Assembly (NCBI RefSeq): GCF_004295345.1
Contig: NZ_CP036200.1
Location: 3,969,501-4,033,500, forward strand
Direction of reading: 5' to 3'
Origin: Shewanella maritima
GTDB lineage: Bacteria; Pseudomonadota; Gammaproteobacteria; Enterobacterales; Shewanellaceae
DNA: 64,000 nucleotides
Shown: positions 4,521-34,861 of the stretch, piece after piece
How the letters are laid out: every line of letters begins with the position of its first letter
Position numbering within the stretch: position 1 is the stretch's first letter
Notes under the pieces: generated by a model
The model's input: the letters and a program-made list of their open reading frames with translations, nothing else
Database searches by the model: none
What the model was told of the DNA's origin: nothing
Position numbers and translations under genes: made by a program

Positions 4521-6188
4521 ATGAGCCATATGGACACTGAAGTACGCCCAAGCAACTTCATTCGAAATATCATCGACGAAGACCTAAACAGTGGTAAGCA
4601 CACTAGCGTGCACACTCGTTTTCCGCCAGAGCCAAACGGTTACTTGCACATAGGTCATGCTAAGTCGATTTGTCTAAACTTTGGCATCGCAAAGGATTAT
4701 CAGGGCCAGTGTAACTTACGTTTTGATGATACCAACCCAGAGAAAGAAGACATTGATTACGTTAACTCAATTCAAGAAGACGTGAAGTGGCTTGGTTTTA
4801 ACTGGACGGGTGATATTTGCTATTCATCAAACTATTTTGATCAACTGCACCAATATGCGGTTGAGCTGATTAACAAAGGCTTGGCGTATGTTTGCTTCCT
4901 AAATGCAGAGCAAACCCGTGAATACCGTGGCACACTAACCGAGCCAGGCAAGCCAAGCCCATACCGTGACACTAGTGTTGAAGAAAACCTAAGCCTGTTT
5001 GAAAAAATGCGCCTAGGTGAATTCAAAGAAGGTGAGTGCGCCCTTAGAGCTAAGATTGATATGGCATCGCCATTTATGTGCATGCGCGATCCGGTGATTT
5101 ATCGTATTCGCTTTGCACATCACCATCAAACTGGCGACAAGTGGTGCATTTATCCAATGTACGACTTTACTCACTGTATTTCGGATGCGATTGAAAACAT
5201 CACTCACTCGCTATGTACGCTTGAGTTTCAGGATAACCGCCGCTTATACGACTGGGTGTTAGATCACCTTGATGATTTCCAAGCGCCTAACCGTACCCGT
5301 CAGTACGAATTCTCGCGCTTGAATCTCGAATACACACTAATGTCAAAGCGCAAGCTAAACGACCTCGTTGAGCGCGACATCGTTAGCGGTTGGGATGACC
5401 CGCGTATGCCGACGATTGCCGGTTTGCGTCGCCGTGGTTACACACCAGCTTCGATTCGTGAGTTCTGCCAGCGCATTGGTATTACAAAACAAGAGAACAT
5501 GGTTGAAGTGGCCATGCTTGAAGCTTGTATTCGTGAAGACTTAAATGAAAATGCACCGCGCGCTATGGCCGTGCTTAATCCAATTAAACTTGTGATTGAG
5601 AACTATCCAAGTGAGCAACCTGAAATTATCAACGCGCCTGCACACCCAAATAAGGAAGAGATGGGCAAGCGTGAGTTAGCATTTGGTAAGGAAATATACA
5701 TCGATGCAGATGATTTCAGAGAAGAAGCCAACAAGAAATATAAGCGCCTAGTATTAGGTAAAGAGGTTCGCCTACGTAATGCTTATGTTATTAAGGCTGA
5801 GCGCTTTGAAACTGACGGTGAAGGTAACGTTACTACGGTTTATTGTAGCTATGACAATGAAACCTTAGGTAAGAACCCTGCTGATGGTCGCAAGGTTAAA
5901 GGTGTGATCCATTGGGTTGATGCAAGCACTGCTAAACCTGCTGAGTTCCGCATCTACAATCGTCTATTTAGCCAAGCTAATCCAGCTGAGTTTGATACAG
6001 TAGATGAGGCGCTAAATCCAGAGTCATTAGTGGTTAAACAAGGTGTTGTTGAAGCAAGCCTTGTTAATTCACCAGCAGAAAAAGCCTACCAGTTTGAGCG
6101 TGAAGGATACTTCTGCGCTGATAACAAAGACTCTAAAGCTGATAGCCTAGTATTTAACATGACGGTTGCGCTGCGCGAGTCATTTTAA
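4521..6188 (+). CDS. glnS: Glutaminyl-tRNA synthetase
   Basis: A class I aminoacyl-tRNA synthetase of 555 residues (E. coli GlnS has 554). It charges tRNA-Gln with glutamine in the cytoplasm. [16 protein letters not shown] holds the HIGH motif at about residue 35-42 and LMSKRKL is the KMSKS-type loop at about residue 270. The C-terminal half has the two beta-barrel anticodon-binding domains. I chose the ATG at 4521, with agagga upstream, over the GTG at 4503. It is a single-gene unit with a terminator at 6216. Confidence 0.97.
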
Positions 6189-6215
6189 TCTAGCCTTAAC
6201 TGTTCTTTGATGTCC

Positions 6216-6246
6216 AAAAGCCTGCTATTGCTAGCAGGCTTTTTTG
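6216..6246 (+). terminator. Terminator of glnS
   Basis: Stem agcctgcta / tagcaggct with a T run of six, 28 bases after the glnS stop. The A run on the other side lets it also serve the convergent TonB receptor gene. Confidence 0.85.
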
Positions 6247-6295
6247 TGTCTTAGGTTTGGCTATTTCTTTTATGCTCCAAACATAAAACAATAAG

Positions 6296-8302
6296 CTAGA
6301 AGGTGTAGTCTAATTTTACCCAAGCTGTGCGCCCAGGTTCGTTGACTTTAAACAAAGGTTCACTGCCCGGAATGTCGTTCCCCGCACCTGAGCGGCTAAT
6401 ATGCTCTGAGTAGGTGATGTCAAAGATATTTTCGATACCAAAGCTAATTAACACAGCATTGCCATGTTTCCACGAGCCATTGAGCGCGAGCGTACCAAAA
6501 CCACTCGACTCAGATAAATCTTGCCCAGAAATATTACCTTGACCAATCGACACGCGATCTTGCGCTGCTACTAAACGCCAGAATAAACCTGCAGTCCAGT
6601 TATCGTTTTCATAGTTAATCGAAATACGACCTTCAAGTGGTGAAACCTGACCTAAGGCGACATCTTGAGTGTCGTTATGACCATGACTATAGCTGACTGT
6701 GGTTTGCGTGGACCAGTTATCGTTAAGCGGGTAGTTCAAGGCTGCCTCGCCACCCCAAATGGTGGCATCTACATTGTAAGCGACAGTTTTGTCAAAGTTA
6801 GCATCTATCAAGATGTAGTCTTGTACCTTGCCAAAGTAAACTGAGGCAGAAAACTCGATGTCATTTTGGTAAATCCAGCCTAAATCGATTTGCGAGGTTT
6901 TCTCTGCTTCTAAATCAAACGCTTTTTGAGATAAACCTGCGCTAGATGCTTTCATTATCTCCCAGTAGTCGGGCATGCGCTGCGAGTGTCCACCGCCGAT
7001 GTAGTACTGGCTATGGTTTCGGTTGTATTCGTAACGAGCAAAGCCGCTGATTAAGGTGTCATCTCGCTTACCTTTTTGGGCAACAAATAATTCTGTTTGC
7101 CACTGATCCACTCGTAAACCACTCATCAACTTACTTGATGATTTTTCGGTAGCATCAAGCTTAAAATCTGACTCAATGAATACACCTAGGTTGTTGTATT
7201 GCAGGTTATCGTTAAAGGGTTTATTGAGTAAGTCATCTAAGCCATGGTCAGCAGTTGGGTCAATAGAGCGGCCTTTATGTTTACTAAACATATAGTCAGT
7301 GCCCAAGGTTGCATTCCAGTCGTCAGTTATACTCATATCAAGCCATAGATGACCGCCGGCTGTCGCGCGCCGTACATTGACGCCAGAATTTTTACCCTGG
7401 TCAAACTGATCCATGATGTGGTCGTTTTCATTGGCATAAACTTGAAACTCAGTATTAGTGAATAGGTCGCCATCTAGTACAAATTGACTAAGTAAGGTGA
7501 AATTTTCATTGTTTATTTCGCGGGCTTTGTTAGCTCGGTCGGCATATTCTGCGCTGCCGTCGGATGTACCATAGGCAATCTCTAACAGAGTATCTTCATC
7601 TGGGGTCCACCCAAGCGCTAAATTGAAGTTACTGCGATCGTAACTGGATTGAATCTTATTACCGTCGCCATCACTGTAATGATCGCTTTGTGATTTGTTG
7701 GCATCAAAGTCGATATAGTGATTCTCATCACCGCCAGATAGCTCAACTAAATAGTCTTGTCTACCGAAGCTACCTGCAGTGGCACTGGCTCTGCCAGTTA
7801 CGTCACTTTCGGTGAATTGCTGACGCTCCTTTTCAAACAGCACGGTGCCCGCTGATCCAACAGGGCCGTATTTTACGGTTTGTGGCCCTTTGATCACGCT
7901 AATATTGTCGTAAGATTCAGGGGAAATATAGGCGGTAGGGGGGTCCATACGTCCGCCGCAGGTGCCATAAACATGCTGACCATCATCTACAATACTAACC
8001 CGTGAACCCCCGAGTCCTCGAAGGCTTGGGTCACCACCTGCGCCGCCTTTACGCCCAACGCTAAAGCCCGGAATTGTTTTTAAATAGCCTGAGCCATCAT
8101 AAGCGGGTAAGGGCAGGCGGGGTTTCTTGGGATCTGTGTTGACCTTGCTTGGCTCGCGCATGACTTCACCAGTCACCACGATATAGTCATCGCATGCCTG
8201 AGTATCAAACTGTTTTTGTTCAGCGGCAGTTGCGTAGATTGCAGTTAGGTTTGTTAGTGCGACTGTGACAAATGTCGCAATCAAAGTTTTGTTTAGGTTC
8301 AT
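6296..8302 (-). CDS. TonB-dependent copper receptor (OprC/NosA type)
   Basis: A 668-residue outer-membrane receptor. Residues 1-26 form a signal peptide ending near YATAAEQ. DDYIVVTGE is a TonB-box-like stretch. The plug domain follows, with DPSLRGLGGSRVSIVDDGQ and VIKGPQTVKYGP, and then the beta-barrel, ending in the C-terminal phenylalanine usual for outer-membrane proteins (KLDYTF). The plug region fits the TonB-dependent copper receptor family, known from Pseudomonas OprC and NosA. It probably takes up copper or a copper complex using TonB energy. It is a single gene; palindromes of CRP type lie 85-115 bases upstream. Confidence 0.85.
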   Translation of the reverse strand: MNLNKTLIATFVTVALTNLTAIYATAAEQKQFDTQACDDYIVVTGEVMREPSKVNTDPKKPRLPLPAYDGSGYLKTIPGFSVGRKGGAGGDPSLRGLGGSRVSIVDDGQHVYGTCGGRMDPPTAYISPESYDNISVIKGPQTVKYGPVGSAGTVLFEKERQQFTESDVTGRASATAGSFGRQDYLVELSGGDENHYIDFDANKSQSDHYSDGDGNKIQSSYDRSNFNLALGWTPDEDTLLEIAYGTSDGSAEYADRANKAREINNENFTLLSQFVLDGDLFTNTEFQVYANENDHIMDQFDQGKNSGVNVRRATAGGHLWLDMSITDDWNATLGTDYMFSKHKGRSIDPTADHGLDDLLNKPFNDNLQYNNLGVFIESDFKLDATEKSSSKLMSGLRVDQWQTELFVAQKGKRDDTLISGFARYEYNRNHSQYYIGGGHSQRMPDYWEIMKASSAGLSQKAFDLEAEKTSQIDLGWIYQNDIEFSASVYFGKVQDYILIDANFDKTVAYNVDATIWGGEAALNYPLNDNWSTQTTVSYSHGHNDTQDVALGQVSPLEGRISINYENDNWTAGLFWRLVAAQDRVSIGQGNISGQDLSESSGFGTLALNGSWKHGNAVLISFGIENIFDITYSEHISRSGAGNDIPGSEPLFKVNEPGRTAWVKLDYTF

Positions 8303-29286: not shown

Positions 29287-30518
29287 CTAGGGAGAGATAG
29301 GGCGCATCATCTCGGCACATAACCATGCCATATAGGTTGCCCAGGCGTAGCCGAATACCGAAAACAAAATAGCCACTGGTGCCAACGAGCGGTGAAATGC
29401 AAGTGCAACCACAGGCGATGAAGCTGCGCCGCCAATACAACATTGACTGCTAAGCGCCATGTAGGCGATCGGTGCGCGCATTATTAGCCCTGCAATGACC
29501 ACAAATGCGATATGAATACTTAGCCAGATGAATCCCAGTAAAAAGTAGATAGGGAAGTCATCTATCATGGCGAGATCCATCTGCAATCCCATATTGGCAA
29601 TGAGAAAGTACAGCATAATACTGGCAACTTTAGATGCGCCAGCGTGTTCCAGGTTACGTAGCCTAGTTGTCGATAGCAGCAGCGATAGGGTAGTTACACT
29701 AATTACCACCCAGAAAAACTCAGAGGTCAAACTGAATTTACTCAAGTGTGGGTAATGGTTGGCAATAAACGGCGCTAGTTTATCTGCGCAGTAATGACTT
29801 ATACCAGTCATCCCAAAAGCTACTGCGAAGATATAGATGTAGTGATTAAGCTCAGGAATCACACTGGCTTTAGGCGCTTGCAGTTCAGTTTTATTGATCA
29901 GTCGTTGTAGGCTTTGAGTGTCTAGTTTGAGCTGATGGTCAAGGCGATTACTGTGCTTTGACAAGGTAAGTAGGATTGACATCCAAATAGCTGAGAACAA
30001 CACATTCACCGAAATCATAATAGCAAAAATGCCGTCATCAACTTGATAAACCTGCTTCATTGCCAGTTGGTTTGCAGTGCCCCTACCCAGTTACCTGCAA
30101 GAGTTGCCATGCCTTTCCAGGCAGCGCCTGCACCTTGCCACTGCAAGTGCTCTGGCGCGATATGAGACATTATCCATAGGGTTAATGGGCCACCAATAAT
30201 GACCCCAAAACTACCAATTAGAAACAAGGCAACAATCTTAGGCCCAAGCAGTAAGATAGCTTTTAAATCAACGCTAATAATTAACAAGGTCAAGCAGGCT
30301 GGCATTAAATAGTTGGATGACACTTGATTGAGTGAGCTGTTTGAGCTGTCGACTACTTCGAAGGTATTTAGCAGTGAAGGTAGGACATAACACACCACCA
30401 TCACAGGAAAGATTTTAAAGAACTTGACTAGGTATGGATGAGTGGACTTACTGGCGTAAAAAACTGCGCCAATTAAGGCTGCGAGTAAGCCAACAATAAT
30501 AGGGTCTTGTGTAATCAC
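29287..30518 (-). pseudogene. DUF819 family membrane permease, frameshifted
   Basis: Two adjacent minus-strand frames (30518-30057 and 30060-29287) together encode one DUF819/YjcL-like membrane protein of about 410 residues with many helices. The first part ends WKGMATLAGNWVGA and then runs out of frame. The second starts in the middle of the family's ANQLAMKQVY segment. Adding one G to the GGGG run at 30080-30083 (CCCC on the plus strand) restores continuous coding. The gene overlaps the upstream LysR gene by 4 bases, so the two are co-transcribed. DUF819 proteins are predicted transporters of unknown substrate. The frameshift may be a sequencing error or real inactivation. Confidence 0.85.
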
Positions 30519-31420
30519 GATATATCGTTTGTTTCGTTAATGGCTTCTTGCTGGCAAAAGCGGATAAATTGTTCAAGCAATTCAGATTTTGCCTCGTCGT
30601 CACGAGTAATCGACCAGTATTTACGCTTAAAGTCCCAATTATTGACTTTTAGCTCAACTAACTCACCGCGTTTAATCTCTTCTTTCACTGCGATGTAAGG
30701 TAGCACGCTGACGCCAATACCTGTGCCGATAGCACGTTTTATCGCGCCCATGGTGTTCATTGACAGCTCTTGGTTAATGGTAATTTTTGCGCTGCGAAGC
30801 AGTTGAATATTACGCAGTCTTGATACTGAAATCGTTTCGTCCATCACCCACAGTTCTTGCGAAAGCAGCTCTGGCGTGATGTTTTCTGACACAAGCGGAC
30901 TATCGCAGCTGGTGACAATACACAGTCTATCTTCAATCCAGTGCTCATGAGCCAAGTTTTTAAGTCCAGGTTTGGCATCGACAAAGCCCAAATCAAGCTC
31001 TCTTTCGGAAACCATTTTCTCTACATCAATGCTGTGATGTATGTGTAGCTTAATATCAACCGATGGGTGACGCTTTTTGAACTGAGGGATCTTGCGCGAT
31101 AGCACATAGTTGCCTGCGGTTTTACTACACCCCACTTTTATGCTGCCACTGATGGTTTGCCCCTTGGCAAACATTTGCTCAATTTGCGAGCCTTTGGATA
31201 ACATCTCATTGGCGTAGGGCAGCATAACTGCACCATTGTCATTTATCGTTAGGCCATTACTGTTACGCTCAAACAACCGACAGCCAAGAAACCCTTCAAG
31301 CTCTTTTAATGCCATGCTTACCGCAGGTACCGAAAGGTGCAAGCTTTTGGCTGCTTTTGATATTTGGCCGTGTTGGTGAATAGCTTTAAATATTGAAAGT
31401 TGTTTCAGTGTCAGTTTCAT
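30515..31420 (-). CDS. LysR family regulator, IfcR-like
   Basis: A 301-residue LysR protein with an N-terminal helix-turn-helix (QLSIFKAIHQHGQISKAAKS, then VPAVSMALKELEGFLGCRLF) and a periplasmic-binding-like effector domain. It lies next to a porin gene and a divergent flavocytochrome c gene. I recall the same trio (ifcR, ifcO, ifcA) described at the iron(III)-induced flavocytochrome locus of Shewanella frigidimarina; the identity here is inferred from context. It overlaps the start of the DUF819 gene by 4 bases. Confidence 0.88.
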   Translation of the reverse strand: MKLTLKQLSIFKAIHQHGQISKAAKSLHLSVPAVSMALKELEGFLGCRLFERNSNGLTINDNGAVMLPYANEMLSKGSQIEQMFAKGQTISGSIKVGCSKTAGNYVLSRKIPQFKKRHPSVDIKLHIHHSIDVEKMVSERELDLGFVDAKPGLKNLAHEHWIEDRLCIVTSCDSPLVSENITPELLSQELWVMDETISVSRLRNIQLLRSAKITINQELSMNTMGAIKRAIGTGIGVSVLPYIAVKEEIKRGELVELKVNNWDFKRKYWSITRDDEAKSELLEQFIRFCQQEAINETNDIS

Positions 31421-31642: not shown

Positions 31643-32716
31643 TTAGAAGTCGTAACGTACGCCAACAGTGAAGATTTTGTCGTCTTTTAGCTCAATCATA
31701 TTGCCTGTGTTGGTATCACGATATTCACCGTCATATTGAGCATAGTGACCAAATATCATGGTCGATTTCGCAATACGGTAGTCTGCACCAATCACCAATG
31801 AGTTAATGTCTACGTCGGTTGCATTGTTATATTGGGTACTAGTCGTTGCGGTATTGTTTTTGAAGTACTTACCAAAACCTGCTTCATCTTTACCGATTTC
31901 AGCTTTAAGGTTAACGCCATTAAGGTTGTAAACTGCGCTAAAGAAGTAAGAGTTACCTTCTTTAGTTTCAACGGTTTGACTTTTAGTATTTTGGAACAAA
32001 CCACCGAGCTTTAGCTGACCAATTTTGTACTGGGCAACACCACGGTATGCGTCCACGCCGCCAATTGTGTTATAAGCTGCAGCGAAGTAGTACGGTTGCT
32101 TTTTAAGCTTTTTGTCACCGCCAACCAAGCTCACAGCATATTGCTTTTCATTTACATCAGTACGAGCGCCGTTGTCATCATATTCTGCGTAGTTATCATC
32201 CATCAAGTAGGTGGCATTAATGGTAATAAGATCAGCAATTTTTGGTGAGTAATAGGTAATGCCGTCTGCTTTGCGGTCTTGACCTGCGATCATACGGTTG
32301 TAAGCAGCGTTGGTTAAAGCAAATGCTTCAGCAGTGCCTTTTGATGTTTTCATCACAGTGTCGTTGCGACCAATTAAGACCGTACCTGCATCAGATTTTA
32401 ATCCAACATAGGTGTTACGCGGTTTAAATACCTTGCTGTCACCTTCTAAGTGCGCGCTATTTACTTGAAATTCCATGCGATATAGCACTTCTAAACCATC
32501 GGAGATTTTTTCGCTGCCTTTGACACCAAGACGCGAGAAGTTGTTTTCTAATATAGTTCCCGACTTACCATTTTGTGTAGTAAAGCCATTGTCAGAATTG
32601 GTGACCGCAATTTCCATACGGCCATAGATTTGTGGTGAGTCTGCCATTGCTGCGCCTGAAAAAGCGCTTAGTGCTCCAATTACTGCAATCGCTACTCGAT
32701 TAATTGACTTGTTCAT
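31643..32716 (-). CDS. Outer-membrane porin (general porin family), IfcO-like
   Basis: A 357-residue beta-barrel porin. Signal peptide residues 1-25 end at SGAAMA-DSP. Alternating hydrophobic strands run throughout, with porin signatures SRLGVKGSEKISDGLEVLYRMEFQ and YVGLKSDAGTVLIGRNDT, and the C-terminus ends GVRYDF with the outer-membrane terminal Phe. I chose the ATG at 32716, six bases after ggag; earlier in-frame starts overlap that site. It is divergent from the flavocytochrome gene over a 369-base gap, suggesting that it lets the reductase's substrate into the periplasm. Confidence 0.9.
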   Translation of the reverse strand: MNKSINRVAIAVIGALSAFSGAAMADSPQIYGRMEIAVTNSDNGFTTQNGKSGTILENNFSRLGVKGSEKISDGLEVLYRMEFQVNSAHLEGDSKVFKPRNTYVGLKSDAGTVLIGRNDTVMKTSKGTAEAFALTNAAYNRMIAGQDRKADGITYYSPKIADLITINATYLMDDNYAEYDDNGARTDVNEKQYAVSLVGGDKKLKKQPYYFAAAYNTIGGVDAYRGVAQYKIGQLKLGGLFQNTKSQTVETKEGNSYFFSAVYNLNGVNLKAEIGKDEAGFGKYFKNNTATTSTQYNNATDVDINSLVIGADYRIAKSTMIFGHYAQYDGEYRDTNTGNMIELKDDKIFTVGVRYDF

Positions 32717-32915
32717 ACTCATCTCCACTTTGAAAAATTGGATTACCCCTTAATGAGGATCCTTTTGTTTTAAGTCTTGTGTTTTGCATCAACGGCAAGA
32801 GAAATGGTTTTCCTTAGCGCTTTTGGGCTTATCACTGATGACAGGAAGCTCGATGCGTTTGTTGGGGTAAATGTTAGAGATGTATGGAAAAAATATTTTG
32901 AACATGTGTCACACG

Positions 32916-32937
32916 AAAACGGATATCGTACCGTTTT
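32916..32937. promoter_or_regulatory. Inverted repeat between porin and flavocytochrome genes
   Basis: AAAACGG-atatcgta-CCGTTTT, a perfect 7-base dyad in the divergent promoter region, is a candidate operator for the neighbouring LysR regulator. Confidence 0.5.
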
Positions 32938-32981
32938 AAGGATATTTTAAGACTGTTTCATAAAAGCTGAACCACAAGGCG

Positions 32982-33000
32982 AATGTGATTTACACCCAAG
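32982..33000. promoter_or_regulatory. Weak CRP-like half site before the flavocytochrome gene
   Basis: AATGTGATTTACACCCAAG keeps the left half of the CRP consensus (TGTGA) but not the right. It lies about 90 bases before the start codon. CRP is the main activator of anaerobic respiration in Shewanella, which makes the position suggestive. Confidence 0.3.
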
Positions 33001-33085
33001 TTTTGATACTCCTTTGTGAGTAACCTTTCCGCCATCGAAGAACAATAAAACTAATTTTATTTTGATGAGCAAAGGAACACACAAT

Positions 33086-34861
33086 ATGAGAAAAGCATAC
33101 TTAGTGTCAGCAATTGCCGCCGTACTGTTATCAGGTGGTGCAATGGCGAAAGACGTTAACCTAGCTAAATTCCACAGCGATATGGGCGACTGCCAATCGT
33201 GTCACGTTGAAGGCAAGCTAAAAGATATTAATAAGACAATTACTGACAGCCAAACTCACGAAAACGCGCAGTGCCGTGATTGTCATGGCGGTTATAGCGA
33301 GCTTGCGAATGACAAACTGCATTTTGACCCGCACACATCTCACCTTGGCGAAATCAACTGTACTTCTTGTCATACAGCTCACGCTAAGCCTGAGTTGACC
33401 TGTAACAACTGCCATAACTTCGAAATGGAAATGCCATTTGCTAATAGCAAAGCGAAGAAAAAGTGGGACGGTGACTGGAACCAAGAACAAATTCGTAAAG
33501 CAATTGAGCGCGGCCCTGTTGAAACCGTTGATGTGATTGTTGTTGGTGGTGGTTCAGCTGGTTTTAATGCTGCAATCAGTGCCAAAGAGGCTGGCGCCAA
33601 CGTAGTGCTATTTGAAAAGGCACCTTACACAGGTGGTAACTCAATGCTAGCTGCTGGTGGTATCAACGCAGTAGGTACACCACAACAGAAGAAGAAAGGC
33701 ATTGAAGATAAGGTTAAATGGTACGCTGAAGATGCAATGAAAGGTGGTCGTTACCAAAATGACCCTAAACTTGTGCAAATTCTTGCTGAAGAATCAGCTG
33801 AGGCTGTGGCTTGGTTAGAGTCTTTAGGCGCCAACATGGATGACTTGAAACGTTCAGGTGGTGCACGTGTTGAGCGTACTCACCGTCCATCTGGCGGCGC
33901 ATCTGTAGGCCCACACATTATCGATACTTTGCGTAAAGCGGCAGACAAACGTGATATCCCTGTACGCGTTAACTCTCGCGTTGAGAAAATTGTGTTAAAC
34001 GACGATAAGTCTATTGCGGGTGTTGTTGTTCACGGTCGCCACTCTGGCTACAACATGGTAGCTGCTGACTCTGTAGTACTTGCGACAGGCGGCTACGGTA
34101 TGAATAAGCAAATGGTTGCTTACTACCGCCCAACAATGAAAGACATGACAAGTTCTAACAACGTAACTGCAACCGGTGACGGTGTGTTACTTGCCAAAGA
34201 AATTGGCGCGTCGATGACTGATATTGACTGGGTACAAGCCCACCCAACTATTGGTAAAGACAGTCGTATTCTTATCTCTGAAACCGTACGTGGTGTAGGC
34301 GCAATCATGGTGAACACTGATGGTCAGCGCTTTATCAGTGAGCTAACCACCCGTGACCGTGCATCTGACGCTATCTTGAAGCAAAAAGATCAATATGCTT
34401 GGTTAGTGTTTGATGAGCAGCTAGTTAAGAAGAAAAAGATGGTACGTGGTTATGAGCACTTAGGCATGCTAAGCAAAGCCAACACTATCGAAGAGCTAGC
34501 TAAAATCACTAACATGAAAGACTTACCGAAAACCGCTGCTGCATACAACAAGTATCAAGCTGCGGGTAAAGATGAAGCTTTTGGTCGTGAAGACATGCCG
34601 CTGAACTTAAGTAAGCCTCCGTACTACGCAGTGAAAGTGGCTCCTGGTATTCACCACACTATGGGCGGTGTCGCAGTTGATACTGACGCTAACGTATTAA
34701 ACCTACAAAGCTGGAAAATGGACGGTTTATACGCTGCAGGTGAGGTAACGGGTGGTTTACACGGTTACAACCGCTTAGGTGGCAACGCCATTGCAGATAC
34801 TGTGGTATTTGGCCGTAAAGCCGGTGAAAACGCCGCTAAGTTCGCACTAGAGAAGAAGTAA
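33086..34861 (+). CDS. Periplasmic tetraheme flavocytochrome c reductase (Fcc3/IfcA family)
   Basis: A 591-residue protein with a signal peptide of 21 residues (cleaved after AMA). The N-terminal cytochrome domain has four heme motifs: CQSCH (36-40), CRDCH (63-67), CTSCH (92-96) and CNNCH (106-110). The FAD domain starts near residue 148 with VIVVGGGSAGFNAA. After removing the signal, residues match Fcc3 numbering almost exactly: H365 (H386), E378 (E399), R402 (R423), H504 (H523) and R544 (R563) are kept, but M236, M375 and T377 are Ser257, Leu396 and Ser398. It should accept electrons from the CymA pool and reduce a C=C bond in the periplasm. Fumarate is possible but not certain. The ATG at 33086 has aaagga upstream. 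Confidence 0.93.
   Translation: MRKAYLVSAIAAVLLSGGAMAKDVNLAKFHSDMGDCQSCHVEGKLKDINKTITDSQTHENAQCRDCHGGYSELANDKLHFDPHTSHLGEINCTSCHTAHAKPELTCNNCHNFEMEMPFANSKAKKKWDGDWNQEQIRKAIERGPVETVDVIVVGGGSAGFNAAISAKEAGANVVLFEKAPYTGGNSMLAAGGINAVGTPQQKKKGIEDKVKWYAEDAMKGGRYQNDPKLVQILAEESAEAVAWLESLGANMDDLKRSGGARVERTHRPSGGASVGPHIIDTLRKAADKRDIPVRVNSRVEKIVLNDDKSIAGVVVHGRHSGYNMVAADSVVLATGGYGMNKQMVAYYRPTMKDMTSSNNVTATGDGVLLAKEIGASMTDIDWVQAHPTIGKDSRILISETVRGVGAIMVNTDGQRFISELTTRDRASDAILKQKDQYAWLVFDEQLVKKKKMVRGYEHLGMLSKANTIEELAKITNMKDLPKTAAAYNKYQAAGKDEAFGREDMPLNLSKPPYYAVKVAPGIHHTMGGVAVDTDANVLNLQSWKMDGLYAAGEVTGGLHGYNRLGGNAIADTVVFGRKAGENAAKFALEKK

Follow-up and report, generated by a model that had tools for sequence, protein, structure and literature searches.

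We analysed a 64,000-nucleotide stretch of the Shewanella maritima genome (contig NZ_CP036200.1, positions 3,969,501 to 4,033,500; hereafter the window), in which a flavocytochrome c gene, ifcA, is accompanied by genes for a porin, a regulator and a membrane protein (Table 1). The ifcA frame has an ATG start and a TAA stop, and its product combines a Cytochrom_c3_2 domain with a FAD_binding_2 domain (FAD, flavin adenine dinucleotide) and scored 555.7 bits against the flavocytochrome c model TIGR01813 (cut-off 285.45). The four CXXCH motifs are invariant across the 27 rows of alignment A2, and the N-terminus resembles a signal peptide of 21 residues, the cleavage site being judged by eye. As set out below, ifcA belongs to the Ifc3 subfamily as an intact and unexceptional member; a protein of this type has previously been crystallised from a relative.

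Table 1. Features of the ifcA locus in window coordinates (ORF, open reading frame)
Feature	Coordinates	Strand	Basis
ifcA, Ifc3-type tetrahaem flavocytochrome c, 591 residues	33086..34861	+	ORF, domain and family matches, tree
Haem domain core, four CXXCH motifs (residues 36-40, 63-67, 92-96, 106-110)	33191..33415	+	motif positions
Ser257 codon (Fcc3 position 236)	33854..33856	+	alignment to Fcc3
Substrate-facing segment, Fcc3 369-383 (precursor 390-404), with R373, L375, S377, E378, R381	34253..34297	+	alignment
Outer-membrane porin (Porin_4), divergent from ifcA, cassette member	31643..32728	-	domain match, neighbourhood comparison
LysR-family regulator, cassette member	30515..31420	-	domain and family matches
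DUF819 membrane protein, two ORFs (30057-30518 and 29287-30060)	29287..30518	-	domain match; AspT/CitS-like transporter fold predicted from the model of a relative
ifcA/porin intergenic region, conserved blocks, possible regulator site	32900..33030	.	9 aligned upstream regions

Among solved structures, the chain closest to the ifcA product is 1qo8, with 72% identity (404/560) over nearly the full length, while the FccA structure 1d4c shares 49% (276/559). The entry 1qo8 is deposited in the PDB as a flavocytochrome c3 fumarate reductase, and because its title matches that of the 'open conformation' structure paper (Bamford 1999) which PMC4427408 cites for Ifc3, we identify it with Ifc3 (IfcA) of Shewanella frigidimarina NCIMB 400. 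A tree was built from the flavin part of 40 sequences after removal of the pocket columns (positions 232-240 and 361-386); in it, the ifcA product and 1qo8 fell into one clade (100/98) and nine Fcc sequences into a separate one (98/99); a long-branch warning applies to the UrdA-like sequences, L003 and L066/L067. The AlphaFold model of the product (mean predicted local distance difference test score 81.6) likewise matched 1qo8, an open form, better than any other PDB entry when ranked by E-value (root-mean-square deviation 5.4, template-modelling score 0.77). It overlaid closed Fcc3 entries more tightly (about 2.5 and 0.88, respectively), as would be expected if the predicted model is in the closed form.

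The reading frame was confirmed, and alignment to the Fcc3 chain 1qjd bore out every residue named in the initial annotation, which had described a flavocytochrome that keeps the Fcc3 catalytic residues H365, E378, R402, H504 and R544 and carries S236, L375 and S377 in place of M236, M375 and T377. R381, absent from that list, is also retained, so that the product has all six residues given as critical in PMC6242907 (H365, E378, R381, R402, H504, R544); in the subfamily set, every row that has a letter at one of these positions shows the same residue. Signal removal was said to bring the numbering directly into line with Fcc3. With 21 residues removed, this holds up to R402, but H504 and R544 correspond to positions 502 and 542 of the mature protein. 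In addition, one more fixed replacement, that of G373 by Arg, had been overlooked in the stretch that holds L375 and S377.

The changed residues recur throughout the relatives of ifcA. The same S236, L375 and S377 are carried by 1qo8, and in the Ifc-type sequences S236 was present in 142/142 (one row has no letter there), L375 in 143/143 and S377 in 143/143; together with R373, they are therefore the normal signature of the subfamily and no private oddity of the S. maritima protein. When the two gene types of the same genomes were paired (30 + 30 genes, the 31st genome, G054, being excluded for its partial genes), positions 236/373/375/377 read S/R/L/S in 30/30 Ifc genes and M/G/M/T in 30/30 FccA genes. 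An Ifc3-type protein, as the term is used here, has the clade and similarity of 1qo8, the S236/R373/L375/S377 signature (defined in the present work), four CXXCH motifs and the FAD domain, and the ifcA product shows all of these; it lies outside the Fcc clade and lacks the M236/G373/M375/T377 of its members.

The differences between the two types are concentrated near the substrate. When 17 Fcc rows were compared with 143 Ifc-type rows (at least 58% identity to the ifcA product, exact duplicates removed and fragments kept), 25 of 463 positions were fixed (>=95%) and different, 8 of them inside 369-383, where 0.8 was expected; a 15-residue segment as dense arose in 1/20000 random placements, a figure that describes the clustering and is no strict probability, as the sequences are related. 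With full fixation required in the paired set, 32 positions differed, including the same 8. This segment is also the one reported to differ most between Fcc3 and urocanate reductase (PMC7921117). In the predicted model, the short helix that bears S377 and E378 is immediately preceded by the loop in which Arg373 would add a positive charge. More distant sequences have Lys or Arg at 373 in 11/12 cases, and Leu375 is found in 12/12 of the more distant flavocytochromes. Moreover, L375 and Arg373 occur in relatives with M236/T377 (P0115 and P0118), and some of the divergence may therefore have arisen in the Fcc type. The S/L/S set appears at two places in the tree, in 15 Ifc rows and in four Desulfuromonadota-type rows with M/L/T-type rows beside them; it may thus be ancestral or have arisen twice.

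The neighbourhood of ifcA is conserved as well. Across 32 loci, the LysR gene was found in 31, the porin gene in 30, the transporter gene in 30 and all three in 29, the count leaving out L013, whose contig stops 157 bases upstream of ifcA. In the window, the DUF819 gene is interrupted at a G run near 30060-30085, which leaves two ORFs that overlap, and the DUF819 gene adjoining the LysR gene is a single ORF (403-436 residues) in 25/26 relatives, the exception, L026, being a draft; the split may be a true break or a sequencing error. The blocks conserved in the ifcA/porin intergenic region lie around GTCACA and AAGTTTTGATACTCCTTTGTGAGTAA and are perhaps a LysR site. CRP-like matches in the window numbered 26 against 31.8 expected, no more than chance. 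The FNR-like pattern TTGATNNNNATCAA, with at most two mismatches, occurred 80 times against 42.5 expected, and 0/100 shuffles had as many; codon usage may account for this excess.

An Ifc-type gene was present in at least 31 of 117 genus genomes (one gene being partial), the 117 having been drawn from a larger group and the search giving the best matches. All 31 also carry an FccA-type gene, confirmed by residues in 30, and this coexistence fits a distinct role for the Ifc type; the ordinary FccA of S. maritima (L002) lies at G000:C1:2744797-2746548. Of the named relatives' loci, 15/16 belong to Shewanella and 1/16 to Ferrimonas, and the protein search covered the best 120 of 711 proteins. Ifc-type genes of Desulfuromonadota and of gut bacteria occur as well (P0108-P0113 and P0098). 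No further Ifc-type locus was found in 368 other genomes of the class (E 1e-100), nor with the family model in the same sample, nor in 146 genomes of one family of the class (E 1e-120, a search run without a positive control). In 394 genomes of the order, the 13 genomes with matches of at least 68% all belong to the same family as S. maritima. As the order and class searches gave no loci elsewhere, the Ifc contexts have been seen solely in Shewanella and Ferrimonas.

What the altered pocket means for the substrate can be judged against this background. The initial annotation had taken the three replaced residues to suggest that the enzyme prefers some other unsaturated acid to fumarate, or at least a different fit. 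The substrate-facing part does differ from that of Fcc3, and the differences are fixed in the subfamily and clustered, but a non-fumarate preference does not follow from three residues. In the comparison with Fcc3, IfcA and UrdA that had been proposed as a check, the triad indeed differs from Fcc3 but is identical in 1qo8. It had further been conceded that relatives with the same residues and proven to be fumarate reductases would undo the proposal, and 1qo8, deposited as such and reviewed as such in PMC4427408, nearly is that case. The triad does not demonstrate that fumarate has been given up, because L375 is also present in the SdhA and NadB of the same genome (both identified by NCBIfam), the change from Thr to Ser at 377 retains the hydroxyl and the six critical residues are retained; 'serine or threonine' is the wording of PMC4427408 for the site that we take to be 377. 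The triad alone was accordingly rejected as proof of a non-fumarate substrate. At position 236, SdhA has Phe and NadB has Glu (29-30% identity, the columns being less sure), and in view of the Phe of SdhA (about 30% identity, with the same reservation) M236 was rejected as a requirement for fumarate chemistry. In addition, the product keeps H365, which is lost in UrdA (Tyr) and, by our site mapping, in methacrylate reductase (Trp), enzymes described as having non-fumarate substrates. The far end of the pocket is indeed different, but the difference is that of an old subfamily as a whole.

The chemistry of the product is very probably C=C reduction, and its acceptor is likely fumarate or a fumarate-like acid. 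The most probable reading, to which we assign a probability of about 0.7, is that ifcA encodes an Ifc3-type periplasmic tetrahaem reductase of fumarate or a closely similar di- or tricarboxylate, belonging to a probably inducible cassette and acting beside FccA. The product would be exported to the periplasm, where electrons from the periplasmic respiratory pool would pass through the four c-haems to FAD. The C=C bond of the substrate, an unsaturated dicarboxylate and most probably fumarate or an acid much like it, would then accept a hydride from the N5 of FAD, with Arg402 supplying the proton and being recharged via Glu378 and Arg381. Together, ifcA, its LysR regulator, its porin and its membrane transporter of the carboxylate type would form a probably inducible unit that works alongside the housekeeping FccA and does not replace it.

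Three observations weigh against this reading in that they suggest that fumarate is perhaps not the acceptor selected for: the clustered fixed substitutions with Arg373, the separate FccA-type gene in 31/31 genomes and the cassette itself. It is possible, though we doubt it, that the Ifc subfamily reduces a non-fumarate unsaturated acid with an extra or bulkier acidic group (e.g., aconitate, mesaconate, citraconate or itaconate), in which case Ser236 and Leu375 would reshape the pocket, Arg373 would hold the extra group, and the LysR regulator, porin and transporter would be dedicated to that acid. Put more broadly, and tentatively, the Ifc subfamily of Shewanella, Ferrimonas and others would be a distinct respiratory system for a non-fumarate unsaturated di- or tricarboxylate, marked by a fixed Arg373 beside the substrate helix and by a cassette of porin, LysR and a transporter of AspT/CitS fold or CitMHS. 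However, Ifc3 is a fumarate reductase according to its PDB deposition and to PMC4427408, H365 and E378 are retained, and L375 and Arg373 in P0115 and P0118 indicate that part of the change may lie on the Fcc side. Residue 373 is predicted to sit in the loop that leads into the short 377-380 helix, and the fold of the transporter does not reveal its specificity.

Both induction during Fe(III) respiration and fumarate reduction in vitro have been reported for Ifc3 (PMC4427408). The former, as stated in the title of Dobbin 1999 cited there, would also suit a product that mainly carries electrons in the periplasm during Fe(III) respiration and reduces fumarate as a side activity. We consider this very improbable, as the six catalytic residues, invariant in the subfamily wherever a letter is present, would not be needed by a mere carrier, and the genes conserved around ifcA encode a porin, a regulator and a transporter. 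Ifc3 kinetics did not turn up in our literature search, which reflects the limit of the collection searched and says nothing about what is in print. A reductase of fumarate or a close acid remains the preferred reading, and a tempting over-reading is corrected: the changed pocket residues are the mark of a known subfamily, not that of a lone enzyme with a new substrate. The role of Ifc3, an old loose end, thereby gains a testable frame in the residue signature, including Arg373, and the conserved cassette.

The name IfcA calls for caution. Genome G060, which we take to be S. oneidensis MR-1, contains no whole Ifc3-type gene; its Ifc3-type cassette is a scar (L150:4715-8125), in which a 3' remnant of DUF819 is followed by transposases (two IS256-family ORFs, 5323-6444 and 6441-7643) and then by the last ~90 residues of ifcA. 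At L145:8443-12446, a flavocytochrome of the F365/G378 group lies between a porin and a LysR gene, and the MR-1 name IfcA therefore probably covers a subfamily other than Ifc3; the 'IfcA' of an MR-1-like genome should be read with this warning, its Ifc3-type gene being a remnant. The reports that FccA is the sole fumarate reductase of MR-1 (PMC3032769) and that its IfcA is induced under Fe(III) reduction (PMC2559895) were on the same grounds rejected as evidence on Ifc3. SO1420 is a porin gene (PMC3160321), and we infer that it is the porin of L145.

Compared with known systems, the ifcA product shares with Fcc3/FccA (1qjd, 1d4c) the domain plan, the haems and the six critical residues, but identity is 45-49%, Fcc has M236/G373/M375/T377 and forms a separate clade, and it is encoded by a second gene in the same genome (L002). 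A third Shewanella group (L065-L074, including the porin-adjacent gene of G060) consists of tetrahaem flavocytochromes like ifcA, with porin and LysR neighbours in G060; however, with F365 in 10/10 and G378 in 9/10, its pocket is truly different from that of the Ifc3 type. UrdA has the flavin domain fold in common with the product, but L075, which matches PDB 6t85 at 872 bits, has Tyr at 365 and Ala at 378; the ifcA product, with H365 and E378, lacks the UrdA marks of Tyr365 and a missing Glu378. UrdA is also reported to have Tyr at 365 and an N-terminal domain bearing flavin mononucleotide where Ifc and Fcc have the haem domain (PMC7921117). The methacrylate reductase Mrd has Trp at 311 and Val at 324 (PMC4427408), which by our mapping are the H365 and T377 sites, where the product has His and Ser. 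Elsewhere in S. maritima, a flavoprotein gene with a Tat-like (twin-arginine translocation) signal adjoins a small multihaem cytochrome gene (L003:1115-3018; C1:2191454-2193210), a two-gene layout that resembles the one described for methacrylate reductase; this flavoprotein lacks H365 and E378 (alignment at ~30% identity). Finally, 28% of the aligned positions differ between the ifcA product and Ifc3/1qo8; the two have in common 72% identity, S236/R373/L375/S377, the six catalytic residues and their clade.
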